From NCBI GenBank assembly GCA_006503475.1, contig RSEH01000399.1, forward strand, positions 1 through 25,944: 25,944 nt of DNA, read 5' to 3'. Of this stretch, positions 1,732 through 25,475 are shown piece by piece. The first letter of the stretch is position 1. The number at the start of each line of letters is the position of its first letter. The position numbers and the translations under genes were made by a program. Source of the DNA: Stentor roeselii. Its lineage: Eukaryota > Ciliophora > Heterotrichea > Heterotrichida > Stentoridae. The notes beneath the pieces are model-generated. The model was not told the origin of the DNA and did no database searches. It saw only the letters and a program-made list of their open reading frames with translations.

Positions 1732-4700
1732 ATGTGGATATTTGTTTGCCTAAGCTCGTTGCTCGTTTTCAAAGCTCAAAAAATTTTAGAATACCGTCCT
1801 GGAGTAAACTACGGGCAAGTGTTTAGAGACTATTCGAATAATGGCTGGCATGCGGTAAGTGGACTCTCATTCTCAGCAGATTCATCAGATGTTTTCCCGA
1901 CAGATAGAGGAAGTTATATCGATGGGACGAATTCTAAACTGATCACAGGTCCATCAAATGACATTCCTGTTGCATCATTAACTTTGCCTTCTACATTTAT
2001 GATCGCTGTTTGGTTGATGATTGATGGTGACCAAGAAGGAATCATATTTTCAAGATTCAAATCTTCAGACCAAACAAAAAGTTACTTTTACTTAAGAAGG
2101 ATAAAATCATACAGTATCATTGCCTTTAAGTATGCTGTTAATGGAGTAACTGCAGGAGAAATAAAGGGCCTTAAATCAAGTTTCGATAAAGGTATTTAAA
2201 ATTTAGAAAAATGGTGCTTTATAGCTCTAGCTATTTCAACATCTTCTTTTAAAGTTTATCATAACGGAATACTTCAAAAAACTTTAACAATTTCAACACC
2301 TTACCTAGAATCAGGAGACTATAAACTACAAATTGGAGGAAAATTTAACATTGGAATCGGTTCCAAGTTTTTCTTATGGTCCTTCACGATAGATTCAGGA
2401 ACTGATCAAAGTCTTTATTATTCTTCAGTTCAAACATCATATTGCCTTGTTCCAGATTGTGATCCCTGCAACCCAGCCGTTGTTTTTTCCTCTCAAAAAG
2501 GTTGCATTTCAGAAGTTTTATATGAAACTAAAACCGGGCAGAAAAAAGAATGCTCTTCAAAATTAGTTGGGTGTTCAGGGTATCCACCAGTTGATTTAAA
2601 TTGTGGATGTCCTTTTAACTCCTGTACTCTCAGTGGAGGTCAACATCTTTGTGTGTGTCCAACATCAGCAGTGTCATCAACAACGACATGTTCATGTCCC
2701 TCTGGTCAGACAATCCGATGGGACATGTGCTGTGAAAGTTCTTGTTTGACTTGTTCAAGGACAAGTGCAGATATTTGCTTGACTTGTGTCGATTTGAATG
2801 CGATTCCTCATACAACTGGTTGCAAATGTAAAGATAAGTTTTTTAATACTACGAAACTTTTCACTAGTTCTTCGTGTAAAGCTTGTCATAGTAATTGTAA
2901 AACTTGCACTGGAAGTCTTTTATGCACTTCTTGTATCGATGCCAATGCCGTGGTTCATCAGAGTGTTGGTTGTGTTTGTAAAGAGAAGTATTTTAATGTC
3001 ACAGCTTTGACAGCGACTGGGACTTGCAAGGCTTGTCATAATAATTGCAAGACATGTAATGTGGATCTTTTGTGCACGGCTTGTATTGATGTTAATGCTG
3101 CGATTCATGCTACTGTGGGGTGTGTTTGCAAGAATTATTTTTTTAATATCACTTCTTTGAATATTGATGGAAGTTGCATGAAATGTCATTCGGATTGCTC
3201 GGCTTGCTCTGTGAGTTTAATTTGCAACTCGTGCATTGATTCTAATGCAACCCCACATCCAAAAGTAGGATGCATATGTAAAGAAAATTACTACAACATC
3301 TCATCTTTATCAGTACCTGGTGCTTGTTTGCCATGCCACAATCATTGCAAAAGCTGCAGTTCATCTTCCCAATGTTCTGTATGCATATCAGAAAATGCTA
3401 TTCCATCAACTTCAGGCTGTGAATGCAAGACAGGCTTTTACCAGATCAGTGATTTTTCATCAATTACCGCTTGTGCCCCTTGCTATGAAGAATGTTCTAA
3501 ATGTTCAGAGTATCCTAAATGTCAAGAATGTATTTCAATAAATGCAGAAATCGACTCTTCTTCAAATTGCGTCTGCAAATCAGGGTACAGAAAATCCGGA
3601 ATAACCCTTAACAATGAAAATTCTTGCTTTATATGCCACTCTGATTGTAATACTTGCCTTGAAGCCTTAAAGTGCGAAGATTGTATCGCGGAAAATAGTG
3701 AACCAAGCACAGTCCAAGGCTGTGAGTGTAAAAAAGGATTTTACCAGTTAAAAGACATGTCAAATTTCGATGCTTGCGAGGTCTGTCATCATCATTGCGA
3801 AACTTGCCTGGAAGCTGATATTTGTTTGACTTGTTTAGATGATAATTCACAGCCGAGTCATCAAATCGGTTGCATTTGCAAAGACACTTTCTTTGTTATT
3901 GAATCGCTTTCTAAAGATAATATTTGTCAAAGTTGTCATCCTCACTGCAAAACTTGTGATCAAAGTGATGTTTGTTTGACCTGCTTAGATCTTAATGCCA
4001 AGCCAGATGTATATGGGTGTAAATGTTTAGAGAAATTTTATTATGATGGTTTACTTTCGAATGAAAAAATTTGTCAAGAGTGTCTTCCTGAATGCAGTTT
4101 ATGTGAAAATGGAAAAAGTTGCAGTGAATGTGTTGCGTCAAATACTGAAATTATAAATGGGACTTGTTTATGTAAAGAAGGGTTTTATCCTCGAGAGAGA
4201 CTTATTAGTTCAGATGGTTGTTTGAAGTGTAATTATGGATGTAAGCAATGCACTTCAGGAAAAGAATGTTTGAAGTGTTTGAGTTTTTTTTCTGAATTTA
4301 ACAAGGTAGGAGGATGCGATTGTAGTGATAAAGAAATCATTGAAATATTTATTTTAATATTTTTATCATGTGATATTGGAGTTTATTTATAAGTTTTTAA
4401 ATGATGGAAAATATTTAAATTGTAGTTATGGATATTTTGATTCTGGTTTAGATTCTCAGAAATGTACTAAATGCAGTGAAAATTGTTTGACGTGCTCTAG
4501 TGGATCAATGTGTGATGAATGTAGAGTTAAAAACTCTAATCCTTTCATATCTGGAGAGTGTAAATGTCCTGAAGGATCGAACTTAGGTGTTAATGAATGT
4601 ATTTGTATCGAAGGGAAATTTATTACTAAGGACTCTTTAGGAAAATTCGTTTGTAGAGATTGTCATAAATCTTGCAAAGTTTGTAATGATACTAATGAAA

Positions 4701-6358
4701 AAGGGTGTCTTCAATGCTTAGAACCTTATATTCGAGGTAGTGTTGATGATTTATGCACATTATGTGATGATGGATATTCAGTAAATGGAACTTGCTACAA
4801 GTGTGAACCTGGTTATAGAGTTCATAATAATTCTTGCAAAAATAATACATTTAGGTCCTATTCTTATGTTGCAGATTCGTACATCTTATGGATTATCTTC
4901 AATGAATCCTTGCTACTAGATTTGAAAGCTTCAGACATAACAGTATTTGTTGATTCTAACCAAGTTGATTTTAAGTTAATTAGAGCAGATGGAAAGTTGA
5001 AATATGGTTTAAAACCAATACTTTATGAGATTTACAGAAATTCTATAATAGAAGTAAAGTTAAAAAGCGGTATACTTTCAGAAAAATTTTCTATTTTAAA
5101 TAATACTTATTACAAAGGAATAATAAACTTTAAAGGAAAAGATTATATAGAGCAGAAATATTCAGATGAAGCAAAAGAACAAGAACAATTTGCTAATGAT
5201 GGGGCTACAACTGGATTAATTATTACTCTTGGAATCAGTTTTTTAACTTTAGATACAAACAGTGTTTTCAATTTAATTAACACAGATGAACTTATTTATT
5301 CGATATACTTATTGGATTTAGAAATTAATCCTATACTAAGAGAGTTTCTTCTAGGTTTAAGAGTTCAAAAATCAACTCCAAATTTATTTAAAAATTTTAT
5401 ACCTGAAGAAAAAGGATTAAAACTCACAACAAAATTTAAAAAGTACGGATATAAGAGTAATCTAGTCATGATTAATGCAGGAATTTTACTGACTCTACTT
5501 GGAATTAAGGTAGCCTTTATTATTCTTTTGGCTATTCTTTCATTTATACCAAAAATTAGAGAAAAGGCAGTTTCTGCTATATCATGGATAACTACTAAAC
5601 TCTTATCAAAATTTTGGATACAAAGTTTTTTTGAATTTATAGTCACTTCCAGTGTCACAGCGAAATATAATATAAATTTAAATGAATATCAAATAGTTGA
5701 CAGTGCAATGTTTTTTGTTATTATTGTAAAAAATATTTAGGTTTTAGAGTTTGCATTTGTTTTTAATTTGATTCGTCTAATTCGAGTTAGACTTTCAATA
5801 ACAGTTCCAAAAATGTTAGAAGAGTTCGAAAATAAATACTCAGTTTTCTTTATAGAGTTTAGAAACGAAAGCAGAGCACAATCGTTTTTCATTTTAATTT
5901 TTTTCATCAGAAGGTTTCTAATAGCAATTGTATCTCAAAGTGAATTATCAGGAATTACTCAAATAATACTTGTTGTGATTTTTAATTTCTCAGTAAATTC
6001 CAAATAGGTTCTTATTTATATTCTCAGTACAAGATGTTTTAAAAAAAATATTTTGAATATTTTTCATGCAATCACAGAATTTTTCATTGTGTGTATAAAC
6101 TCTTTGATTATTTATGGTTATTATCAAAACGAGCTTTACGAATATAATCGGATATCAGTCATTTGCATTCGTTTCATATATGCTAGTTGGGCTGCAAACT
6201 CCTTCGCAAGTCTTTATTTGCTTATATCTAATTTGATAATGAAATTCAGAGGACTTAAAAAAATTTTCAGTAATAGACGATCAAATCAAGTGATTCAATT
6301 TACTAATGAAAAAAAGAGCAATTTCGAAAATAAGACTCAGGAACAGCAAGTCTGGTAG
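1732..6358 (+). CDS. LamG-like/furin-repeat multi-pass membrane protein, paralogue 1 (interrupted by a 100-bp insert)
   Basis: Inferred exons are 1732-2191, 2207-4322, 4423-5725, 5741-5992 and 6008-6358. They give about 1493 residues once three 15-nt introns and the 100-bp segment 4323-4422 are removed. The first ~16 residues are a signal peptide (hydrophobic VCLSSLLVF, then KAQ). A LamG/ConA-like beta domain follows (~20-230). A cysteine-rich ectodomain (~236-997) holds about 13 furin/growth-factor-receptor-like modules with the pattern C-x2-C-x3-C-x2-C-x5-C-x2-C-x12-C-x-C, many with an N-x-T/S sequon. A short beta-type juxtamembrane region precedes about 7-8 hydrophobic helices (from ~1118) and a charged cytosolic tail. 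The role is probably as a surface or vacuolar membrane protein; ligand and function are unknown. If the insert is not excised, translation stops at the TAA at 4390-4392 before any membrane segment. The ATG start is supported by the signal peptide, the upstream TATA box and the identical start position in paralogue 2. Confidence 0.85.
2192..2206 (+). other. 15-nt intron 1 of paralogue 1
   Basis: GTATTTAAAATTTAG, phase 1. Read through, it gives an immediate in-frame TAA. Removal joins DK to EKWCF, matching the TKFKWCF junction made by the equivalent intron of paralogue 2. A at position 10, TAG at the end. Confidence 0.93.
2728..4310 (+). repeat. Tandem array of ~150-bp cysteine-module repeats (paralogue 1)
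   Basis: Coding tandem repeats with a period of 147-150 bp (49-50 residues). The first-cysteine blocks recur near 2871, 3021, 3171, 3321 and 3471. Eleven modules lie before the insert and two more after it. Repeats 2-5 are closest to one another. From repeat 6 on they are more diverged and lose the sequon that follows the last cysteine pair in the earlier modules. Confidence 0.88.
4323..4422. other. 100-bp IES-like insertion inside paralogue 1
   Basis: The segment is flanked by an exact 8-bp direct repeat ATTGTAGT (4319-4326 and 4419-4426) with TA at its centre, exactly 100 bp apart. It is about 16% G+C by hand count, far below the surrounding exon. It shifts the frame by +1 and carries stops. 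Removing it from one TA to the other restores D-C-S-Y-G-Y-F-D, aligning with D-C-E-E-G-Y-F-D in paralogue 2. No GT-AG boundary gives a 100-nt excision, and no 15- or 16-nt intron explains it. The best reading is an unexcised internal eliminated sequence of the TA-bounded kind known in ciliates including Blepharisma. A small insertion with an 8-bp target duplication is the alternative. No clear terminal inverted repeat is visible. Confidence 0.65.
5726..5740 (+). other. 15-nt penultimate intron of paralogue 1
   Basis: GTAAAAAATATTTAG, phase 0. It ends in an in-frame TAG if retained. Removal joins FFVII to VLEFAF. Introns in paralogue 2 (11243-11257) and in the minus-strand relative (17622-17636) occupy the same position. 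Confidence 0.93.
5993..6007 (+). other. 15-nt last intron of paralogue 1
   Basis: GTAAATTCCAAATAG, phase 0, with an in-frame terminal TAG if retained. Removal joins FNFS to VLIYILS inside a membrane helix. The position is shared with 11510-11524 and 17373-17387. Confidence 0.93.
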
Positions 6359-7552: not shown

Positions 7553-10500
7553 ATGTGGAGAGTTATTTCTCTAATTTGGTTCCTTGGCTCTAAATCACAA
7601 AAAATTTTAGAATATCGGCCTGGAGTGAATTATGGGCAAGTCTTCAGAGACTACACCAATAATGGCTGGCATGCTGTGAGTGGAACGTCTTCAGCAGTTG
7701 ATATTTATGATGTTTATCCAACTGACAGAGGAAGTTTTGTCGATGGATCAGATTTTCGACAGATCACTCTTCCATCTAATGACGTAAGTACTGGGTACTT
7801 CTCTTTACCCTCTTCTTTTATGGTGGCTGTTTGGTTGATGGTCAATAGAGACGACGGTGGTTTAATATTTGTTAGATTTAAAGAGAATGACCAGACGAAT
7901 AACTTCTTTTACTTAAGAAGGTTAAAAGCGGACTCAAATTTGAGTTTTAAATATGTTGTTAATGGGGTCGTTGTTGGAAATGTAGATGGACCTATTTCGA
8001 GTTTCACGAAATGTAATTGAAATTTAGTTAAGTGGTGCTTCATTGTCCTATCTGTTTCAACTACAACTTTCAAAGCGTATCAAAATGAGGTACTTTATTC
8101 AACTTTAACATTTTCAACACCTTACCAAGAAATTGGAAATTATAATATGCAAATTGGAGGAAAATTTAATTCTGGTGGATGCAGATTTTTATTATGGTCA
8201 TTTACGATTGATTCAAGCAGCGATCAAAGTGGATACATGTCTAAAGTATTAACAAATAACTGCCTTGTTTCCCCTTGTAATCCTTGCAATCCAGAGATAG
8301 TATTTGGTTCAACTTCAGGTTGCCTTTCAGAGGTTAGCGATGAAACTAGTAACTCAAATAAAGACATCTGTAATTCTAATCTTTATGGATGCACTTATTC
8401 ACCACTGGTACTTTTAAACTGCGGATGTTCTTTTCAATCATGTACTCTGAATGGAACTTCCCATTTATGTGTGTGTCCATCATCTGCAGTTTCAACAAAT
8501 ACGACTTGTGTATGTCCAACTGGCCAAACCATTCGATGGGACTTATGCTGTGAAAGTTCGTGTTTAACTTGCTCAAGTACAAATCCAGACATTTGTTTAA
8601 CATGCGTTGCCTCGAATGCAGTTCCACATACAGTTGGCTGTAAGTGTCAGGATATGTTTTTTAACACTACTAGCTTGGTTACTTCTACATCATGCATATC
8701 CTGTCATAATAATTGCAAGACATGCTCCTCAAGTTTATTATGCACAACTTGCATAGATTCAAATGCGGAAATTCATTCAACCGTGGGTTGTATTTGCAAG
8801 TTGAAATTTTATAATACCACAAGTTTATCAGTTGATGGAAATTGCAAGCCCTGCCATAGTGACTGTGAAACATGTACTTCAAGTTTTCTATGCACTTCAT
8901 GCATAGACTCTAATGCGCAGGTTCATTCAACTGTAGGATGCACTTGCAAAGTTGGTTTTTATAATATTACCAGTCTGTCATTGGATGGAAACTGCAAAGT
9001 ATGTCATAATAATTGCAAAACTTGTACTTCGAGTCTGTTATGCACTAGTTGTTTAGATCTCAATGCAGTGATCCATTCAACAGTAGGATGTACTTGCAAT
9101 TCAAAATTTTATAATACCACAAGTTTATCAAGCAATGGAAACTGCATACCCTGTCATGATAACTGCAAAACCTGTATTTCAAGTTTGGTATGCACTTCAT
9201 GTTTAGACTCAAACGCGGAGATACATCCAACTGTCGGATGCACATGCAAGAATAATTATTTCAATGAAACCTCCTTAACAGTTGATGGAAACTGCATGCC
9301 TTGTCATCAAAATTGCGAAACTTGCACTTCAAGCTTTTTATGCACTTCATGCAAAGACTCAAACGCAGATATTCATTCAACAGTTGGATGCATTTGCAAA
9401 AGTAAATATTATAATACCACCTCTTTAAATTCGGATGGAAGTTGCAAAATTTGCCATTCTGAATGTTTAACTTGTTCTCAAAGTTTGATCTGCGATTCAT
9501 GCATAGACCAGAATGCAACCCCTCATCTAAACTTAGGGTGCATATGTAATGCAAAATATTATAATATAACTTCTTTATCAATTTTTAATGCCTGCAAAAA
9601 ATGCCATAGCCATTGTGAAAGTTGCACAACAGGCAGTCAGTGTGTATCATGCATTGCAAGTAACTCGATTCCATCAAGTATTGGCTGTAGGTGTAAAGAT
9701 GGCTTTTATCAAATCAGTGATCTCTCATCAGCAGATGCTTGTGGGTGCATCGCGTTGAACTCTGAGATTTTGAATGGAAATTGTGTTTGTAAAGAAGGAT
9801 TTTATGCTGTTGGGAGGCTTGATGAGGTAGGGAGTTGTTTACATTGCAGATATGGATGCAAGAAATGTTCTTCAGAAGATTTATGCTTGGAATGTTTCAG
9901 TCTTTATTCTAAATTTAACCAGTTTGGCGGATGTGATTGTGAAGAAGGGTATTTTGACTACGGGCTTGATGTTCAGAAATGCATCAAATGTCCAGAAAAC
10001 TGCCTGACGTGTGTTAGAGATGAATATTGTAGTTTATGTAAAATTGAATTTTCTAATCCTTTTACTACTGGTGAGTGCAGATGCCCTAATCACTCAATAT
10101 TGGTTGAAAATAAATGTGTTTGTAGTCTAGGGAAGTTTATTAGTGAAGATTCTTTTGGATTATTTAGTTGTATTGATTGTCATGAATCATGTAAGACTTG
10201 TTTTAAGGAATCTGAATATGATTGCCTTGAATGTGCTGAACCTTACACAAGAAATGACTTCAGTAATCAATGTGCTTTATGCTCTGATGGCTTTTTCCTC
10301 AATGGAACTTGCCAACAGTGTGAACAAGGCTACAAATTAAAAAATAATTCTTGTGAAAAAAAAACGTTTAAGTCTTATTCATATATCGAAGATTCATATT
10401 TTTTATGGATCATCTTTAATGATACTTTATTGCATGACTTGAAAGCTTCTGATTTAACAGTGCATGTTGATTCAGATGAAGTCAGTTTCACATTAATTAA

Positions 10501-11872
10501 AGCAGACCGAAAGATAAAATATGGAATAAAGCCTAAACTGAATCAGATTTACAAAAATTCATTAATCGAAGTAACAATAATAAACGATCTGCTTTCTGAA
10601 AGCTATTCATTCCTAAGCACAAAATATTTTAAAGGAACAATCAACTTTGGTGGAAAAGATTTCATTGAGCATCAATATTTAGAAGAAGCAAAAGAACAAG
10701 AACAACTTGCTTCTGATGGAGCTACAACAGGAATCATTGTAGCATTAGGAATAAGTATTATTACTAATGACCCTAGCACTATATTTAATTTTATTAATGT
10801 AGAAGAACTGATCTATTCAATCTATCTACTTGATTTAGAACTGAATCCTATACTTAGAGAATTTCTTCTTGGTTTAAGAGTGCAAAAATCAACTCCTAAT
10901 CTTATGAAATTGATAATTTCAGAGAAAAGTGGATTGGAACTTCCGAAAAAAATTAAAAAGTATGGGTTTAAAAGCAACCTTGTATTGATTAACGCAGGGA
11001 TTTTACTCAGTCTACTTGCAATTAAAATAACTGTGATATTAATTTTGAAGCTTCTTTCTTTTATACCTAAAATTAAAGAAAAGGCTAAATCTGCGATTTC
11101 ATGGATTATTAAAAAAGTTCTTTCTAAATTTTGGATTCAAAGCTTTTTTGAGCTTAAGGTTGCCTCCAGTGTTACAGCAAAATACAACATAAATTCAAAT
11201 AATTTTCAGTTAGCTGACAGTTCAATATTTTACTTGATAATTGTAATTGATAACTAGATATCTGAATTTCTGTTGATATTCAATCTAATCCGTCTAATAA
11301 GAGTTAGAGTTATAATAAAAGATTCTGAGGAATTAGAACAGTTCGAAAATAAATACTCAGTTTTCTTCATATAATTCAAAAATGAAACTAAAATACAATC
11401 ATTTTTCTTCTTGATTTTCTTTATCAGACGGTTTTTGGTGGCAGTAGTTAGTCAAGCTGAATTATCAGGAATTACTCAAATAATACTTGTTATGATTTTG
11501 AATTCAACTGTAAATATTATGCAGGTTTTTTTATATGTTATTATCACGAGATGTTTCAAAAATAAGATTTTGAATCTTTTCCATATTACTACAGAATTTC
11601 TCATTGTTTGCATAAATACCATGATTATTTATGGGTACTACAATGACGAGCTTTATAACCATAACAGAATTTCAATCATTTGTATTAGGTTTATTTTTGC
11701 ATGTTGGGGAATCAATGGTTTAGTGTGTCTCTATTTATTGGTTTCAAACTTGATTACCAAAATAAAGGAACTAAGACAATATTTGAACAATAGAAAACTT
11801 AATAAAGTCACAAACTTAACTACTGATACCAAGGGAAATCTAGGAAAAACGATCGAGCAGAAAAAAGTTTAA
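7553..11872 (+). CDS. LamG-like/furin-repeat multi-pass membrane protein, paralogue 2 (one in-frame TAA)
   Basis: Exons are 7553-8012, 8028-11242, 11258-11509 and 11525-11872, nominally 1424 codons. The order matches paralogue 1: signal peptide (~1-15), LamG-like domain (~18-230), cysteine-rich ectodomain with about 11 modules (~231-929) and multi-pass membrane region from ~1050. Repeats 2-7 each carry an N-glycosylation sequon after the last Cys pair (for example FYNTTSL). Module 8 runs into a shortened module (ACGCIALNSE), so several modules present in paralogue 1 are missing here in frame. Codon 1264 (11372-11374) is TAA where paralogue 1 has GAG. Translation stopping there would give 1263 residues lacking the last four or so helices and the tail. 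The frame stays open and similar to paralogue 1 afterwards, with the last intron intact. It could be a fresh pseudogene, an allele, a readthrough site or a sequence error. Confidence 0.85.
8013..8027 (+). other. 15-nt intron 1 of paralogue 2
   Basis: GTAATTGAAATTTAG, phase 1. Retention gives an in-frame TGA. Removal joins TK to FKWCF, aligned with paralogue 1. Confidence 0.93.
8538..9740 (+). repeat. Tandem 150-bp cysteine-module array (paralogue 2)
   Basis: GG-A-A-x-TGC-type blocks that start each module recur at exactly 150-bp spacing at 8841, 8991, 9141, 9291, 9441 and 9591. Modules 3-6 are strikingly alike (shared TSCxDSNA, HxTVGCTCK and TSL blocks), pointing to recent unequal crossing-over or gene conversion. 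A module-truncating junction lies near 9745. Confidence 0.9.
11243..11257 (+). other. 15-nt penultimate intron of paralogue 2
   Basis: GTAATTGATAACTAG, phase 0, stop-containing if retained. Removal joins YLIIV-I to ISEFLL. Homologous in position to 5726-5740. Confidence 0.92.
11372..11374 (+). other. In-frame TAA within paralogue 2
   Basis: Codon 39 of the third exon, within Y-S-V-F-F-I-*-F-K-N-E. Paralogue 1 has GAG (Glu) there in Y-S-V-F-F-I-E-F-R-N-E. A single G-to-T change from GAA would create it. No GT-AG pair removes it. Confidence 0.88.
11510..11524 (+). other. 15-nt last intron of paralogue 2 (stop-free)
   Basis: GTAAATATTATGCAG, phase 0. It has no in-frame stop, so it is hidden in an open frame and would add V-N-I-M-Q if retained. 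It aligns exactly with the intron at 5993-6007, has A at position 10, and its removal makes the helix match paralogue 1. Confidence 0.85.
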
Positions 11873-13394
11873 TAGTTAGATTTCATAAATGGTTTAATAT
11901 TCTAGACCTTAGATTATAGTAAGAGTAAATCATGAAAACAGCATAAATCAGCTATAAACTGAAATTTATTAATATCAATGAGATAATAATGTAAAAAATT
12001 AGTTATATCAAATCTCAAATATTAGTATGAAGCTTAGTAATAATACTCGATATAATAAATTTGTTTAATATCAAAGCATTAGTATTTTTTTATTATTTTG
12101 AGGAATTTAATATACTCTATATAAAAAATGAATAATAATAGTAAGGATATAATATTTAACTTAGAATCGACTATCCACTAAATTTTTTTAAATTAATATT
12201 ACTCTTAACATGATTTAGGATAACTTGTTGATAATTTTTTATGTTTAAATGATATATTAAGGTATGGCAAATATTAATAATTCCAATTGAAAGTTATATT
12301 ATTGGTGCATCATTTGAACTCAATAAAATCGAGAGAATAATGGGTGATTATTGAAATGTTTAAGTATGAATTAATTTTTAAAATATGTTAAATAATCTTT
12401 TATATTTTTGGATATCTGTCTTAGCGAAATAGACTATCAGCAAGTTCAAATCTTAATTGAAAGTAAGTATTCATATAACTTTGAAGTATTTTGCTGAATT
12501 ATTATAGAATAGATTTAGCTATTTCAAGCATGTTATATACTAATCTCCACAAATTTCAATCGATGATTACATCATTATAAAAAATATCCACATCTCTTAA
12601 ATAATTATTGTATTCTACTCTGTATTATCAAAATCAACTTTCTGATTCCATTTTAAACCTTTTTATGCAAATAACTCCGTTTCAAATTCGATACAAATTA
12701 AACATTTTTATCTATATTAGATATGAACAATAGATAAAATCATTTAAATACGATCTTTTCGTCTTTTATTTTGATTTCTTTGTGTTTATTTCTTAATCAG
12801 ATATTTCTTCTTTTATTGTGAATATTCCAATAGTTTAAAACGGGAAATTCTAAATATCGAAAGTAAATAAAAACTTTTACAAGAATAACATATCATTATC
12901 TAATCACTTTACCAAGTGGCTTAATTTCTTGTTTAGCTTTGCCTTAAATGTACAATAATTAAACTTGAGAATATATCCTGTTGCTAGATATCATAAAAGT
13001 GTACCTTTGAAGCTAATTTGAGAGTTTTAGATTTATATAGTTTTAGATCAAATCGGAGAAGAATTCTAATCACGGATTTGGTCTTATCATAACAATCTTA
13101 AAGAGGTGCATGCGAGTTATACTTGAAAAGACTTAAAATCCTGAATTTTATTCCTTATTGAATGACAAATCACTGAGTATCTGCTAGTCAGTCTAAGATA
13201 ATTGATACTCACTAAGCCAGACTACTTTGAATCAAACGATTCCCAAAGAATTCCTAAAATCCCAACTTAAAAAAAATCCAAATTTTCCCAATGATATTTA
13301 CTTCGAAATCCTAAACAAACCAACCCAAACAATTAATCTAAAACCTAAGTCTTCATTTCAACAAACTACCAAGTTGATTGTTGACTTAATAAAA
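11873..13394. other. Gene-free interval before the glucosidase gene
   Basis: About 1.5 kb of AT-rich DNA with no supportable gene. The final ~190 bases (13206-13394) are A/C-rich and stay open in the glucosidase frame, but contain no in-frame ATG, so they are taken as upstream flank. No TATA box at the spacing used by the surface-protein genes is visible. Confidence 0.55.
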
Positions 13395-15995
13395 ATGGTA
13401 AGATTACCAGCGACTTTGATTCTTTCAGTACTCAGTCTGTTAGTATCAATAGAAAGTCTGCGAATCGGTGACAACCCTTACGATATTTCGAACATTCAAA
13501 TGGACAGCAACGGAATAATCGCTTTAGGGACTTACCACCTGGGCGACTTCGAGTCAGCCGATGAAAAGATCATAAATAAAATATTCATAAACATAACCTT
13601 CGACAACGCGCACCGTCTGAGGATTCGAATAACAGACAACTCAACAGCGAGATGGGAAGTTCCTTATGACCTGGCGACTTACACAATAACAGGAAGTTTA
13701 GGTCTTTACAACGTGAGCATAAACCAGCAGCCGATGGGCATTCAAGTTGTGAGAAACTCTGACAACAAAGTTATTTTCAACTTAGACCCAAACCTTTTCT
13801 TCAGTTATGACGACCAAGACCTGCTTTTTACGAATAATTTGCAATACCCGATAAATGTTTTAGGCCTTGGTGAGAGAATCACTTCTTTTATTGTTCCGAC
13901 TGGAAGTTATGTGCTTTGGTCAAGAGATAGGACTTCGCCAGTTGATGATGGGCAGAGTATGGATGCTAACATGTACAGTTCACAGCCTTTTTATATGGTC
14001 ATCGATGAGCAGGGGAAAGCTTTTGGTTGTCTTTTGTATAACTCGAACGCCATGTCAGCCACTGTGAACCCGACGTCAATCACGATGAGGACGACAGGAG
14101 GTATCATTGACTTGTGGCTTTTCATAGGGCCTGAGCCTCAAGATGTTATTTTTCAGTATCATAGTCTTATCAACCCCCCAGTGCAAATCCCTTACTGGAG
14201 CCTCGGGTGGCACCAATGTCGATACGGGTATCAAAATGTCTCTGTTTTAAATCAAGTGCTGAACAATTACACCAGTAATAATATCCCTCTTGATGCACTT
14301 TGGAATGATATTGATTATATGGCAGCTTATAATAACTTTGTCTTGGATCCTGTTAATTACCCGATTACTGAAATGACTACACTTATTCAGAAGTTGCAGC
14401 AGCTTAATAAACATTATATTCCCATCGCCGATGCAGGAACTGGACAGAACTTGAGCAACCCGTTCTATGTGAAAGGAAGTAATATGAATGTTTGGATCAT
14501 GGACCCTTATACTCCTACTCAACCAGCTGTTGGAGTTGTTTGGCCAGGAAATGCTACTTTTATTGATTGGGTTCATCCTAATGCTTCTGATTATTGGTCG
14601 TATTGTTTGAGTACCTTTCAAAATACTGTTGCTTTTTCTGGATTGTGGATTGATATGAATGAAGTTAGTAATTTTCAGAGTGGAAATGTGGGGCATCAGC
14701 CTAGTATTATCACTAAAGATACTATGCCTTGGACGCCAGGTGACGATTTGAATACTCGATCCCTAGACGTAGCCTCAACTCACTACAACATAAACCCAGA
14801 AGTTCCAAACAGCAACATCGAGTACAACTACCACTCCCTATACGGTCACTTCCACGCACGTGAAACAAACAAATGGTTTACCAGTCAAAAAACTCGATCA
14901 TTCATAGTCACAAGAAGTAGTTTCCCAGGGAGTGGTCAATGGACATCAAAATGGTTAGGAGACAACTTTTCCCAATGGAGTTACATGGAGCATTCAATTA
15001 CAGGAATTTTTAACTTTGGAATGTTCGGAATTCCGATGATGGGAGCTGACATTTGCGGCTTTCTTGGAAATACAAATTTGGAACTTTGTGCAAGATGGAC
15101 TCAACTGGGGACTATGTATCCTTTTTCAAGGAACCATAATGATATCAAGTCGATTTCTCAGGAACCTTGGCAGTTTGGACAACTGCTTATTGAAACTAAT
15201 CAGATTTCGATTAGGAACAAGTACATGCTTTACTTATACTTTTACTCTAGGATGATGGAAATTTCTCAGAGTGGAGGAATGTTGTTCAAACCGGCCTTCT
15301 GGGCTTATCCTAATCAAATGGCTTTGTTTTATAATGCGACTTCTTCGTTTATGCTTGGAGATGCTTTGATTGTTCATCCTTGCTTGTGGCATGGAATTAA
15401 GGGATCAACTTCCTTTTTCCCTGATGATATTTGGTATGACTTGTACACAGGAGAATACAAATTCCTAGACTACGACAACTCTCTCTATCTCCAAATGGAT
15501 TGGCCAGGTCTAATCAACATTCATTTAACAACCGGTCACATTCTTCCCACACTAGACAACTACAAGACCGCAATGTCATCTTACGACACTCGATATTCTA
15601 ATATAAGCCTGATAATCACCCAAAGTGGAACAGCAGATGCTAATGGAAAAGTCATCTTCGACGATGGTATCACTTACGGAACTTTATCCAATTCTCAGTT
15701 CACCGAGATCGAGTATGACTTTTTCTCATATAACAGCACTTTCGACATCTTCAGTGTTCAAGAACTTGCTGATGGTTACACCAGAGCACCACGAGAATGG
15801 CCTTATATTTCTACTTTAATTTTCTACGGTTGCACTGCAGCTCCTGAAAATGTCTATCTTTTCTCGCAGAATAACTTGAAGTTACTTGCTGTTTCTATTT
15901 ATTGGAATGCAGCGAATATGATTTGCAAGATCTGGTTGAGAGATAACTTGGCACCTGACCAACCGGCGACTCTTTACATAGACTATTTGATTTAA
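13395..15995 (+). CDS. Secreted/lysosomal alpha-glucosidase, glycoside hydrolase family 31
   Basis: An 866-residue single-exon protein that should cleave terminal alpha-linked glucose from maltose- or glycogen-type substrates, in lysosomes, food vacuoles or outside the cell. The ATG at 13395 opens a signal peptide (MVRLPATLILSVLSLLVS). A GH31 N-terminal beta-sandwich follows, including RLRIRITDNSTARWEVP, and then the (beta/alpha)8 barrel. Visible motifs are LGWHQCRYGY, LWNDIDYM (W303, D305, D307), WIDMNEVSNF with nucleophile D420, KWLGDN with acid/base D523, GADICGF, and FSRNHN with H581. C-terminal beta domains follow (~600-866). There is no trefoil (P-type) domain as in human acid alpha-glucosidase. 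It has many N-x-S/T sites. It converges with the gene at 17019-22754. Codon choice alternates sharply between C-ending and T-ending blocks. Alternative family roles such as alpha-xylosidase are possible but less likely given WIDMNE. Confidence 0.93.
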   Translation: MVRLPATLILSVLSLLVSIESLRIGDNPYDISNIQMDSNGIIALGTYHLGDFESADEKIINKIFINITFDNAHRLRIRITDNSTARWEVPYDLATYTITGSLGLYNVSINQQPMGIQVVRNSDNKVIFNLDPNLFFSYDDQDLLFTNNLQYPINVLGLGERITSFIVPTGSYVLWSRDRTSPVDDGQSMDANMYSSQPFYMVIDEQGKAFGCLLYNSNAMSATVNPTSITMRTTGGIIDLWLFIGPEPQDVIFQYHSLINPPVQIPYWSLGWHQCRYGYQNVSVLNQVLNNYTSNNIPLDALWNDIDYMAAYNNFVLDPVNYPITEMTTLIQKLQQLNKHYIPIADAGTGQNLSNPFYVKGSNMNVWIMDPYTPTQPAVGVVWPGNATFIDWVHPNASDYWSYCLSTFQNTVAFSGLWIDMNEVSNFQSGNVGHQPSIITKDTMPWTPGDDLNTRSLDVASTHYNINPEVPNSNIEYNYHSLYGHFHARETNKWFTSQKTRSFIVTRSSFPGSGQWTSKWLGDNFSQWSYMEHSITGIFNFGMFGIPMMGADICGFLGNTNLELCARWTQLGTMYPFSRNHNDIKSISQEPWQFGQLLIETNQISIRNKYMLYLYFYSRMMEISQSGGMLFKPAFWAYPNQMALFYNATSSFMLGDALIVHPCLWHGIKGSTSFFPDDIWYDLYTGEYKFLDYDNSLYLQMDWPGLINIHLTTGHILPTLDNYKTAMSSYDTRYSNISLIITQSGTADANGKVIFDDGITYGTLSNSQFTEIEYDFFSYNSTFDIFSVQELADGYTRAPREWPYISTLIFYGCTAAPENVYLFSQNNLKLLAVSIYWNAANMICKIWLRDNLAPDQPATLYIDYLI

Positions 15996-17018: not shown

Positions 17019-20000
17019 TTATCTAGCTAGTCTTTTAATATTTGGTAAACTTGCGAAATTGACATTCGTTGAAGGAGATGCAGTAGTGATGTGTCTAATC
17101 GGAATAACAGTATCTTTTTTCGAGCATTTTTCAAAAATAAGTCTTCTAATATTAATAAAAGCTTCAACGACACTGAACACTCCACTCATAATGATTGTGG
17201 AAGTGATGATATAAATTAAAAGCTTTGTATTTTCCAGACTTTTGGTAGACTCCTTCCCCAAAGTAAACGAGAGGAAAATGAAATAAGACAAAATGTGAAT
17301 CTCGTTCAAAATGTTAAAGACAAGAGTCAACTTGCTCTTAAAAGGAACAGTGATAATCAAGTAAAACAAGATCTGCTTATTTCTTACAACAATTGTCAAC
17401 ACTAAACTAACAGTGACTTGCAGAAAAGGCTCACTGAATAAAACAATGGAGACTGAAAGAAACATTCTTCTAATGATGAATAAAACGTAATAAAGAACAC
17501 ATGAAAGGTTTTCTTTTTTGAATTCCTCGAGGATGGTTTCGATTTTCTCAGGGGAACTTCCACAGTTGTATACTTGAAATAGTTTATAAATTATCAGAAA
17601 AAGAGAAAGAATCAGGAAGAACTACTTAAAGATTACCAAGATTGCAATACTGACTGTAAAGTCAAAAATATTAAAAATACCTGTAAGCTCTGTATTTAAA
17701 ATAGATATCAAGCAAAATACACTCAAATCAAAAATAAACTGAATCAAAAATCTCAAATAATATCCAAAAACCATTCTTTTCCTCAAAGCCATTCCTATTC
17801 TTTCTAGTCTACTATTTCCAGATACTTGAAAACTATGACAAATCAACTGCAAAAACAGAATAAAAAACAAAATAATCAAAGCACTAGATGAATTAACCAG
17901 AAAATAAGAACTAGTAATTCCAAGTTTTTGATATTTTCCAGGTATTTTCGAAACAATTTTCAAGTTACTTTGTATAATATTCGGAATTTTCATGGTAGAC
18001 TTAAGACCATCGATGAATTCTTCATAAGTTTCATCAAATTCAACGTCAAATATCAAAGAGTAAATGTAAATTTCAATCATGTTTATCAGGTTAAACAGTC
18101 CTGCAGGGTTCATCCCTAAAAATGCGGAGCCAGCTGCTGCACTTCCTGAACTCACCGTCGCTGATTTCCCTGATTTTGCAACTTCTTTCACTTGAGCTTG
18201 AGCTATAGCAAGTTCTTCCAAGTTCTCAAGTTGATACAAAGCGCCTTGAAGGACTTTATTTTCAAGTAAATATTTTTCAACAGATGTTATTTTTTTTAAG
18301 AATTTTAAAAAAATTCTGTGTTTTTCGTGCATTTTTATGGATTTTGATGGGATTAAAGTTAGAAAGTAAGTCTTTGAGTCTAGCTTTTCTAATTCGAAAT
18401 CGGAAGTGATTGCGTCGATCTTCACTGAGATGTCTTTGGATGAAATTGGAAGAGAAAGATCGAATTCGAACCTTATCAGAATTGAGTTGTTCATGAGTAT
18501 TTGTAAACCTGCTTCGAACATTATCTGCTCACAGAATAGACCTTTTAGCTTAAAACCTTTTATACATTCGCAGAAATTGGCTGAATTTAAGGTGAAATTT
18601 GTTTGGCAGGCTGTACAGATTTCACTTGAATTGCAATATGTGCAGAATGGGTGACAGTTTTTGCATTTTTCAGTTTTCACATCATAATATTTCGGAAGCT
18701 CACACTCATAGCAATTTCCTTTAATGACCTCAAACCCCCAATTGCATTTCCTGCAAACCGACAAATCAAGAGTATCACATTGAAAACAATTCTGATCTTT
18801 ACAAATCTGGCAAGTTGTAGAATTAAAACATCCAAATTTACAGTCACTAGAACAATTAAAGCATTCACCATCCTCATCCATAAACTGATCAAAATGACAC
18901 TTATCAAGACATCCATAAAAAAAACTCGGGAAAATCTCACAAACACGACCAGAATAATATTCAGGTTCTAAAAAAATATTCAAAATATCAAAAGCAAACA
19001 AGAACCCCATCGAATAATTCCCAAACTCAACAGTTGATCCAAGAATCAAAGTCGAATTTTCAGAGTCTTTATAAGGAAATTGTGAAAAACTCTGAATTTT
19101 TCTCACTTTATTAATCAAATAAAAAAATTCACTTTCAATTGAATAATTAAGTCCAACGACCAGATAATTCCACTCTGAGTTGCTAAGACTTTCATCAATT
19201 ATAGCATTTACATTATCCCCTGATAAAAAAGCTGAAAAAATCACTGAAGGACCTGGACTAACTTTAAATGAAAATTCTTTTGACGTGAAAAGTTGAAAAA
19301 GTTCAAATTGATTTAAAGGTCTCACCCAAGCATAAACAAAGAAACTCGGTCCGACTATTGCCTGGCCAGGTTTAAACCGAATGCAAGTATTGAGCCCGTT
19401 GAAGTAAACCCCTCGTCTGGGGTACACAAGGACTTCTGAGTGTTTTGAGCAGGGCTCAGCGGATTTTTTCGTGTTAAGTTCTCGAAGCGACGGGGCAAGC
19501 CCGTCGAAGCGAAATTTAACTGATTGGAGAGAATCTGGAATGCAGAGGGTTCTTTGCTTTTTATAACCTAAAGGACATTTGTTGTAACACATTCCTTCTA
19601 GAAGAGAGGTTTTGCAGTTAGAACAACTGAAGTACATTGCGGAACTGCAGTTCAAACAGGGATCTGGACATGGAAGGCAATCGTCTCCTGATTTATAAAA
19701 GGTTGTGTTGCAGATGCAGGAGGTGTTTTCAAGATGGGCTCCTGGTTTGCATTTTATGCAACTGTTTGAACTGTTGAATGTGCAGGCTTGACATGATGGA
19801 TGGCAGATTAGACAAGTTAGTCCTGATTTGAAGTAACCTTCTTGGCACTTTAAACAACCTTCGTATAAACTATTATTGTATTTGCATGTATCACAAAAGT
19901 CATAGGATGAGTTCCAAAAAAATCCTTCAGAACATTTGCATTTATTTTCGACAAGTTGTGCATTTGGAAGACATTTTGAACATGAATCTTGGTAGTCTTT

Positions 20001-22754
20001 GCAGATACTGCAGATACTATCATTGCATAATGAGCATCCTGGGTTAGTTGCGCATCCATTCAGACATTTTGATTCACATATTTGACAAGAACTCCCTGCC
20101 CAATAATATTCAAATTGGCAGGGCCATAGTCCACTATATAACGTGAAATTTTCCTGCAAATATGAAATATAAAACATGTAAATGAACCCTTCGAAGCCAT
20201 TATTCAAACATCCAATTTTAAGACTTGAAGAATTATCATAAAAGTAGCTTCCTGATGATACCGAATAAAAGTAATAATTATTTATACTGATCGTAAATGT
20301 TGATAAATCAGGCAATAAACTTACAAATTTAAAATGAAAATACAACCAAACTTGATCAAAAATATAGTTGTCTATTTTTATACTCTGCTCTGAAAGATTG
20401 AACCACCCATTTGTTGATAGAAACTTGTTATACTTTTCAATGATGGTGCCAGCTTTCATTTCATACATGTAAAAACCGAAAATCACTTGATGAGGCAAAA
20501 TGATGGAATTTGTGTAAATAAATGAATTGTTTTTAAAGTAATATCCCCGACTTTTTGCAGGTAACGGTTTAGAACTCTCTGAAGAATTTAGACTTGAATA
20601 GTTACTGATGTAGTAAATGATATCTGAGGTGTCCGAAATAAAGTATGGTTTATCAAACACTATTTTTGACATTGTATAAAAAGTGAAGTTTTTGGTACAA
20701 TTGGAACCTGAGACTATGAACATTGTAGGACATTCTTTATAGCATTTGAAGTCCAAATAATAATATCCAGGCATGCAACTTGGACATAAAAATCCAGTTG
20801 AATTTATTGTATCGTTACATCCTATCACTTCGCAATCTAACTTTGTTTTATTAAACTCTGAGCCATAAAGGCATGGATCATATGTGGTTGATGAATTGCA
20901 GTCTGAATCGAAACCATTGCAAAATTCACAACTTAAATTCTTGCATATGTTGCATGAGTAGTATGTTCTACAACCAGTTGCGCAGTCTTTAGGACAATTT
21001 TTTACTAGTTTGGAGTAAGTATCAAAATAGCTATTGAATTCATTGCTTTGAATCAGACAATCGTTACTAGATTGAGATGAGCAGCTTTTTTTAGGAGTCA
21101 TAAATGTAATATCTGAGTAAGGATATAAGTTAAGTAAATAAATGAAAGCCCTATATGGTTGTATTTTTATACTAGAATTAGTATCATAAAAAATTCTCTT
21201 ATTAAAAGTTTCCATCCATAAAATATAATTTTTCTGATAAATGATAAGCGTAGTGGCCCTCAAAGCATATTCAATACTAACTCCAATAAAAATCCATCCA
21301 TCAACACTAAATCCTTGAGTATTTTTATTAACACTTTCTGAACAGTTTCTCAAATATACTGATACTGAAAAATCACTGTTAATTACCAGATTACTTTTTT
21401 GGAAAATATGATTCAAAATAGTTTGAGTATGGTAAACCCACATAATCATTGAAAAATTAACGTTTAAAATTGTTTTATTTGATTCCAAGAAACTATATCC
21501 ATTAAAATATAACCCTTTTTGATACAACGGTAAAGGATCATCTATCTCTGGAGTGTTGTTGAAGTAAAAGGTCTCTGGATTCGCTCCACTCATAAAAAAA
21601 TCCCCATAAAGCCCTTTAAAATCGTTGAAAGTGATTAAAATACTTTCATTTAGCACTGAATCTGGAAGACAAAGTGAGTAGTTGAGAATGAATCCTTTAT
21701 CACAAGAAGTGCAAGTATAATTGTCCCAATTTGAACAGTTTGGTTGATCACATTGAGAAGATATTTCTTTTATGCATTCTTTGATGCTGTAGCCTGTGCA
21801 ATCAGTGCAAGCTTGCGAGTAGCAATAATTACTTGAGTTTTTAAAACAGGGAGGCCAAGTATTTACTTCAAAACAATCATAGCAGTTTGAATCAGCGTCA
21901 TATTTATTCAAACCACAGTCTGTGATAGTTTTATAGAATAATTTTGGACAGCTATTATCATTCATCAAAATTGAATAGTATATGAAACCATTAAAAGATG
22001 TAGTCTCATAAGATCCAAAGATGTAACTAATCTCATTGTAGGGTACTCTAAATTCTGAATTAAATCCAAATTGATACTCTTTTTTATCATATCTGATTGA
22101 ATCAGTCGCATTTACTTCATTTCGAAAAATGATGAAATTCACTGACCCATTCAATTGAGTCGCTGATATTGATAAGCTGTACCAATATCCATCATTACTA
22201 TATGGAATAGAAATTTTGTTTATGATGGAAGAGGTCGAGTTGAATGTCAGGTTGACATAGAATTCTAGAAAGGATGCAGAAGACCTGAGCTCTAAAAATG
22301 TCATAGAATCGTTTTTAACTTGAAATATAGTACCATAGTTAAAAGATCTAAAGTATATGCTAAAGCAGAAGTCAGGTGCGATTAAATAAGTTGAATTTAA
22401 TTCTATTGCGCTTGTTGATTCAAAATAAAAACCTTTAGAATAAGTAGGAACCGGGGTTTTTCTACTTGAACTATTAAATTCAATTTCTGGTCTCCCAGTG
22501 AAGTTCTTGAAACTTGAAGCTGAAAATTCGGTAAAAGAAAAGAATTCCGTAAAAAAAATCAAAGGATCTGAACCCTCGATGCAAATGCCAGAATCCAAGG
22601 AATATCCTGCAGGACAATAGGGAAGACAGCTGACATTCCTGTAAAGATTGAACTGAGTGCATGAAGTTTCATTTGTGGAAAGGTAGAGATTCAAACCTCC
22701 TACACTAACGAGAACTAATAATGAGCCCAGAATCATTATAAGCGAAGCATCCAT
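17019..22754 (-). CDS. Large membrane protein with four LamG-like/cysteine-rich units
   Basis: Exons on the minus strand are 22754-17637, 17621-17388 and 17372-17019, giving about 1901 residues. An N-terminal hydrophobic segment (~5-25) acts as signal peptide. Four LamG/ConA-like units lie at ~65-270, 370-555, 695-875 and 1075-1265. Each is followed by a cysteine-rich furin/EGF-like stretch (~279-362, 553-690, 879-1073, 1272-1408), and each LamG unit has a Y-x-x-G-x-Y-F-type strand near its start. A beta-type juxtamembrane region (~1410-1500), an Ala/Ser/Gly linker and a multi-pass membrane domain (from ~1530) containing GLFNLIN then E-x-x-x-Y-S-L align with VFNLIN and L-I-Y-S-I-Y in the two plus-strand paralogues. 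The last two introns are at homologous positions, which supports common descent. There are many N-glycosylation sequons. Function is unknown; an adhesion or surface-sensing role is only inferred. The frame is intact. Confidence 0.85.
17373..17387 (-). other. 15-nt last intron of the minus-strand gene (stop-free)
   Basis: On the minus strand GTAAGAAATAAGCAG, phase 0, without an in-frame stop, so it would add V-R-N-K-Q if retained. Removal joins VLTIV to ILFYLI, aligning with the FNFS/VLIYIL junction of paralogue 1. A at position 10. Confidence 0.8.
17622..17636 (-). other. 15-nt penultimate intron of the minus-strand gene
   Basis: On the minus strand GTAATCTTTAAGTAG, phase 0, ending in an in-frame TAG. 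Removal joins SIAIL to FFLILSLF and opens the frame to the stop at 17019. Position is shared with both paralogues. Confidence 0.92.
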
Positions 22755-25400: not shown

Positions 25401-25475
25401 CTTTCCATTCCTTCCATTTCCATTCCTTCCATTTCCATTCCTTCCATTTCCATTCCTTCCATTTCCATTCCTTCA
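25401..25475 (+). repeat. 15-bp tandem repeat, 5 copies
   Basis: Unit ATTTCCATTCCTTCC is repeated five times. The first copy starts with C instead of A, and the last ends in A instead of C. The plus strand carries no G. It lies about 85 bp before the ATG at 25559, so it may be a promoter-proximal minisatellite. Confidence 0.92.

Follow-up and report, generated by a model that had tools for sequence, protein, structure and literature searches.

The window, a complete contig of 25,944 bp (C346) from a 44.39-Mb assembly of 522 contigs, carries a gene (gene 1) that is interrupted by a 100-bp unit bounded by an 8-bp direct repeat, ATTGTAGT, and whose reading frame is restored when this unit is taken out. 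The unit is plausibly an internal eliminated sequence (IES) of the short heterotrich type, present in germline gene 1 and left in the assembled somatic copies, a reading to which we give about an even chance. It builds on the observed anatomy of the unit, the restoration of the frame on paper, relatives free of the insert, the telomere repeats of the assembly and its Piwi matches. The features concerned are listed in Table 1.

Table 1. Coordinates of gene 1, its inserted unit and its tandem paralogue in the window
Feature	Position	Strand	Description
Gene 1	1732..6358	+	Cysteine-rich repeat protein with hydrophobic C-terminal part, as read from its translation
Gene 1 exons, unit absent	1732-2191, 2207-4318, 4419-5725, 5741-5992, 6008-6358	+	1,493 codons
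15-nt intron of gene 1	2192..2206	+	GTATTTAAAATTTAG; model
Inserted unit	4319..4418	+	Frame-breaking; one ATTGTAGT copy plus 92 bp; 16% G+C
Left direct repeat	4319..4326	+	ATTGTAGT; TA at 4323-4324
Right direct repeat	4419..4426	+	ATTGTAGT; TA at 4423-4424
15-nt intron of gene 1	5726..5740	+	GTAAAAAATATTTAG; model
15-nt intron of gene 1	5993..6007	+	GTAAATTCCAAATAG; model
Gene 2, tandem paralogue	7553..11872	+	Uninterrupted at the homologous site (~9957); in-frame TAA at 11372-11374

The two exact ATTGTAGT copies noted in a sequence-only reading of this DNA were indeed found to start 100 bp apart, at 4319 and 4419, and comparison of the surrounding sequences showed that their identity ends at 8 bp on both sides. 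The description of the segment as approximately 16% G+C, frameshifting and stop-bearing was likewise borne out, as the G+C content of the unit is 0.16 (vs 0.33 in the flanks), the gene 1 frame read into the unit encounters a stop at 4392, and the frame that is open downstream is a different one. Among overlapping 100-bp windows, none of the 1,669 placed over the gene models of the contig was as A/T-rich as the unit (minimum 18% G+C), and 2.7% of the 700 intergenic windows were. In simulations, random 100-bp inserts had at least eight identical bases at their exact ends in 3 of 20,000 cases; when lengths from 85 to 115 bp (steps of 3) and offsets within 15 bp were allowed, the fraction was 0.042 of 5,000, suggesting that the direct repeat is probably real and belongs to the feature. 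The additional description of the unit as TA-flanked holds in that both repeats contain a TA, but this is uninformative, since TA is present in 45% of 800 local 8-mers. A third ATTGTAGT on the plus strand occurs only at 10026, in gene 2, ~70 bp from the homologous site.

Read inwards, the ends of the unit are TAGTG and TACAA. No terminal inverted repeats were found at its TA ends, where 7 matches occur over the first 20 positions, or, in a comparison made by eye only, just inside the 8-bp repeats. Searches of 108 bp and 707 bp against the 44.4-Mb assembly, with the best candidates scored, returned this place alone, yielding neither a second copy of the unit nor an insert-free copy or allele of the gene 1 site; the unit is without the terminal inverted repeats and the several copies that characterize a cut-and-paste MITE. 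The DNA fold of the unit is unremarkable (z -1.1), and Rfam gave no match over 4200-4550.

Precise removal of the unit from the sequence, which keeps one terminal direct repeat, restores gene 1. A stop-free run then extends from 2200 to 5740, ending at the end of a 15-nt intron, and when the three 15-nt introns are also taken out (15 nt being the sole length tried in the gene models), a complete frame of 1,493 codons followed by a stop is obtained, with no other stop. The claim that removal rebuilds a frame like that of the paralogue was thereby confirmed, as the joined gene 1 aligns with gene 2 without gaps over 85 printed alignment columns spanning the junction (gene 1 GGCDCSYGYFDSG, gene 2 GGCDCEEGYFDYG). 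Lined up by eye, gene 2 and the next four relatives in order of E-value all have an unbroken C-x-C-x-x-G-[YF] motif across the junction. In a wider family search (106 rows at 87 loci), 50 of the 106 rows, all of them off this contig, cross the homologous position unbroken, and neighbouring rows differ in frame in none; this row count is a weak test, because the upstream piece of gene 1 itself was also unlisted and such splits escape. No Pfam family was identified in the two stretches of gene 1 that were scanned (703 and 435 aa).

Compared with gene 2, gene 1 exhibits a dN of 0.38 and a dS of 1.48 upstream of the insert, and 0.26 and 1.34, respectively, downstream of it, indicating that the downstream part of gene 1 is without sign of relaxed constraint, in a measure to which a recent change is invisible. 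The premature TAA of gene 2 corresponds to codon 1264 of 1,429, at which gene 1 has a glutamate codon, and no GT..AG segment of 15 or 16 nt covers it. Gene 2 may be a pseudogene or encode a truncated product, or the TAA may be a sequencing error; such a stop suggests that decay is at hand in this array. Elsewhere in the family, two members on contig C412, at 2239-3483 (+) and 12457-13701 (-), are equal in score, identity and open-frame size, which may mean that an inverted duplication took place recently or that the assembly is palindromic here.

The telomere-type repeat CCCTAACA, searched for as two consecutive units, occurs 271 times in forward and 389 times in reverse orientation in the assembly, with 0 for the reversed control. 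Listed sites are located on 12 contigs, and at the contig end in all eight that could be checked (C5, C9, C11, C13, C26, C40, C48 and C56); none was found on the window contig. These telomeres, together with 15-nt introns and the lack of a TGA sense codon, point to a heterotrich-type somatic (macronuclear) assembly.

With regard to the genetic code, gene 1 (flanks joined), gene 2, gene 3 and the GH31 gene contain 61 TGG and 0 TGA in 5,698 codons, and the standard code leaves all four open, with the exception of the single TAA in gene 2. Reading TGA as Trp yields 56 long open runs (38,784 codons) vs 50 (35,935 codons), and reading TAA and TAG as sense yields 63 (48,014 codons); such a gain is expected from the removal of any stop, and the four genes are the better guide. 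Stentor uses the standard genetic code. In Blepharisma stoltei, TGA is reported to encode Trp (PMC9942806), and the evidence from the four genes points to a code that is Stentor-like and unlike that of B. stoltei.

It had also been suggested that germline DNA might be present in the assembly. In the B. stoltei reports, the IESs number about 40,000 and the somatic genome measures 41 Mb, or approximately one IES per kb (PMC9942856; PMC9942806), at which density about a dozen would be expected in the ~12.6 kb of coding sequence of gene 2, the GH31 gene and gene 3. None of these three genes has a comparable insert, and a germline origin of the whole contig is therefore unlikely. The minus strand of the contig carries a large gene for a cysteine-rich product whose C-terminal part is hydrophobic (17019-22754; 1,906 codons, open throughout, with one 15-nt model intron); no Pfam family was found in the 1,706 aa scanned. 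A short tandem repeat with an 18-bp-type unit (TTCCATTCCTTCCATTTCCA..., delimited by eye) is located at 25404-25474, upstream of a gene start.

With respect to the machinery for DNA elimination, 12 Piwi-domain matches were detected in the assembly, all 12 above the cut-off, so that at the gene level the Piwi requirement of scnRNA-assisted elimination appears to be provided for. One of them (C114:29189-30070) lies in a frame of 406 aa and the other 11 in frames of 756-791 aa; the short frame may be due to an intron or a truncation, or to a second insert. The PiggyBac profile PF13843 gave 0 matches, which is no evidence of absence, as the control genomes were likewise silent. For S. coeruleus, only a weaker pair of PiggyBac matches is reported (PMC9942806). 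DDE_1 was represented by one match in a 465-aa open frame and one fragment with two stops, and DDE_3 and MULE had no match in the assembly, with three control genomes positive for each. For IS1595-type transposases there were 12 matches, half of which (six) lie in open frames of 385-473 aa. The IS1595/Merlin superfamily is associated with target duplications of 8-9 bp.

Similar inserts were sought in the window and in 140 kb of contig C1 (166 kb together), as TA pairs at a distance of 40-400 bp that, once removed, bring together two open frames of coding-like character, with pairs of five other dinucleotides for comparison. TA-bounded clusters numbered 114, vs 105-132 for AT, AA, CA, TC and GA, and those with repeats of at least 6 bp numbered 28, vs 27-48 for the other five dinucleotides. 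With the TA counts falling within the range of the other dinucleotides, the scan cannot tell IESs from chance and lends no support. The unit has the longest repeat among the eight TA clusters of the window, but on C1 its repeat is equalled or exceeded in length by those of some clusters (8 to 15 bp). A homology search for split genes over the same 166 kb recovered only the unit itself and one of the 15-nt introns of the window, with low sensitivity because 34 of 599 fragments had any hit. Among protein kinases, all 135 scored matches (the best 135 of 1,346 candidates) span at least 250 of the 263 profile positions, in a sample biased against split genes because the best matches were chosen. 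Separately, 14-15 bp direct-repeat pairs exactly 288 bp apart were observed at two neighbouring places on C1 (~884-1600), which suggests a tandem repeat near the start of that contig. A literature search at abstract level found no paper on Stentor IESs.

If the unit is a retained IES, the germline copy of gene 1 would carry the 100 bp, and, as a new macronucleus develops, the two ATTGTAGT ends would normally come together and be cut at the TA or close to it. Joining of the flanks would then leave a single ATTGTAGT and bring back the 1,493-codon frame, and retention, either complete or partial, would be the reason why the insert appears in the assembly; the identity of the excising enzyme would be a presumed part of this explanation. 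Gene 1 is otherwise whole, as would be expected if the insert is usually removed. A precedent for retention in an assembly is provided by Paramecium, where one of 53 previously cloned IESs is reported to have been present in the somatic reference assembly (PMC3464196).

The IES label, as proposed from the sequence alone, is supported by the somatic heterotrich setting, the Piwi matches and a size within the 65-115 bp class, but is unproven, since an ordinary insertion would account equally well, or better, for the 8-bp repeat and the missing inverted repeats. With eight identical bases, the repeat exceeds by six what TA excision requires and resembles a target-site duplication, and the G+C content is half that of B. 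stoltei IESs. Both TAs are intact, which would appear unlike most excision-blocking mutations of Paramecium. The unenriched TA pairs of the 166-kb scan, the lack of an assembled insert-free copy, the failure to detect PiggyBac (though with silent controls) and the premature stop of the adjoining gene 2 also count against the IES label.

An ordinary recent insertion fits the data almost as well. In that case, a 92-bp A/T-rich piece would have entered one member of the tandem gene pair with an 8-bp target-site duplication, and nothing would excise it; its source could be a small non-autonomous element or a retroposed fragment, or it could be filler at a staggered break, and this copy of gene 1 would now be a young pseudogene or disabled allele. 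The perfect direct repeat, with its rarity at exact insert ends, has the look of such a duplication, the six open IS1595-type frames belong to a superfamily with duplications of this size, and gene 2 likewise has a single disabling lesion, so that the gene pair may be decaying. The missing insert-free copy, among the best candidates scored, is also in keeping with an insertion. On the other side stand the lack of terminal inverted repeats (by eye for the inner ends) and the single match in the assembly, and one lesion in 1,493 codons would make the insertion very recent if gene 1 is dead. We regard this explanation as a serious possibility, at somewhat less than an even chance.

The remaining explanations are considered improbable. 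The insert could be an artefact, i.e. a minority or chimeric path in the assembly or sequencing of a highly polyploid genome, given that the contig is short and without the CCCTAACA repeat; a unique insert of 16% G+C, with exact 8-bp flanking repeats and set in normal coding sequence, would in our judgement be an unusual artefact, and this origin is unlikely. It is slightly less probable again that the unit is the IES of a Stentor-like heterotrich in which TGA is not a sense codon, bounded by 8-bp repeats and removed by an excisase other than PiggyBac, a proposal based on the six open frames of IS1595/Merlin type and the undetected PiggyBac with its silent controls.

Least probable of all is an unusually long intron, with the 100 bp leaving the RNA and not the DNA: 21 GT..AG pairs of more than 16 nt (GT at 4200-4419, AG up to 4519) do keep the frame open to 5725, but no pair has its ends at the two repeats, two (4306-4381 and 4306-4393) lose the conserved GGCDC and retain A/T-rich codons of the insert, the other 19 each cost at least 25 nt of coding sequence outside the insert, and a length of 100 bp departs from both the 15-nt introns of the gene models (the sole length searched for) and the heterotrich spliceosomal pattern of 15-16 nt with GT..AG, in which, according to PMC11441545, introns of 15 bp make up ~95% and those of 16 bp the remainder.

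Should the unit be a retained IES, it would provide a sequence-level example from a heterotrich other than B. stoltei and a PCR target for whether, and how, such species excise DNA. Mating, and hence genome editing, is described as hard to study in heterotrichs (PMC9942806, on Stentor). Should it be a mere insertion, gene 1 would be an ordinary young pseudogene.

Among known systems, hAT, Merlin/IS1595 and P elements duplicate their target site and can leave a short non-coding insert flanked by 8-bp direct repeats; the unit shares this arrangement with them, without inverted repeats and with a single match in the assembly. The unit resembles the TA IESs of Paramecium tetraurelia in being short and single-copy, with TA at both ends and within a coding region. 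In that species, occasional retention in somatic DNA is described, and cis-acting mutations that block excision are almost always located in a flanking TA (PMC3464196). Unlike P. tetraurelia IESs, the unit does not read TAYNR inwards on both sides, and both of its flanking TAs are intact.

Of the IESs of B. stoltei, three-quarters are reported to be bounded by TA-containing direct repeats (most commonly TA, TAT/ATA and TATA), about 70% are intragenic, the short ones form a class of about 65-115 bp with ~10-bp periodicity in length, inverted repeats at the ends are common but heterogeneous, and the G+C content is 33.3% (PMC9942856). The unit differs from these in its 8-bp repeat, its G+C content of 16% vs 33.3% and in being known from sequence alone, and the four genes examined here lack the TGA codon that B. 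stoltei reads as Trp. It resembles the short B. stoltei IESs in its heterotrich setting, a length of 100 bp within their range, TA-containing direct repeats, an intragenic position and the precise excision that its structure would imply.
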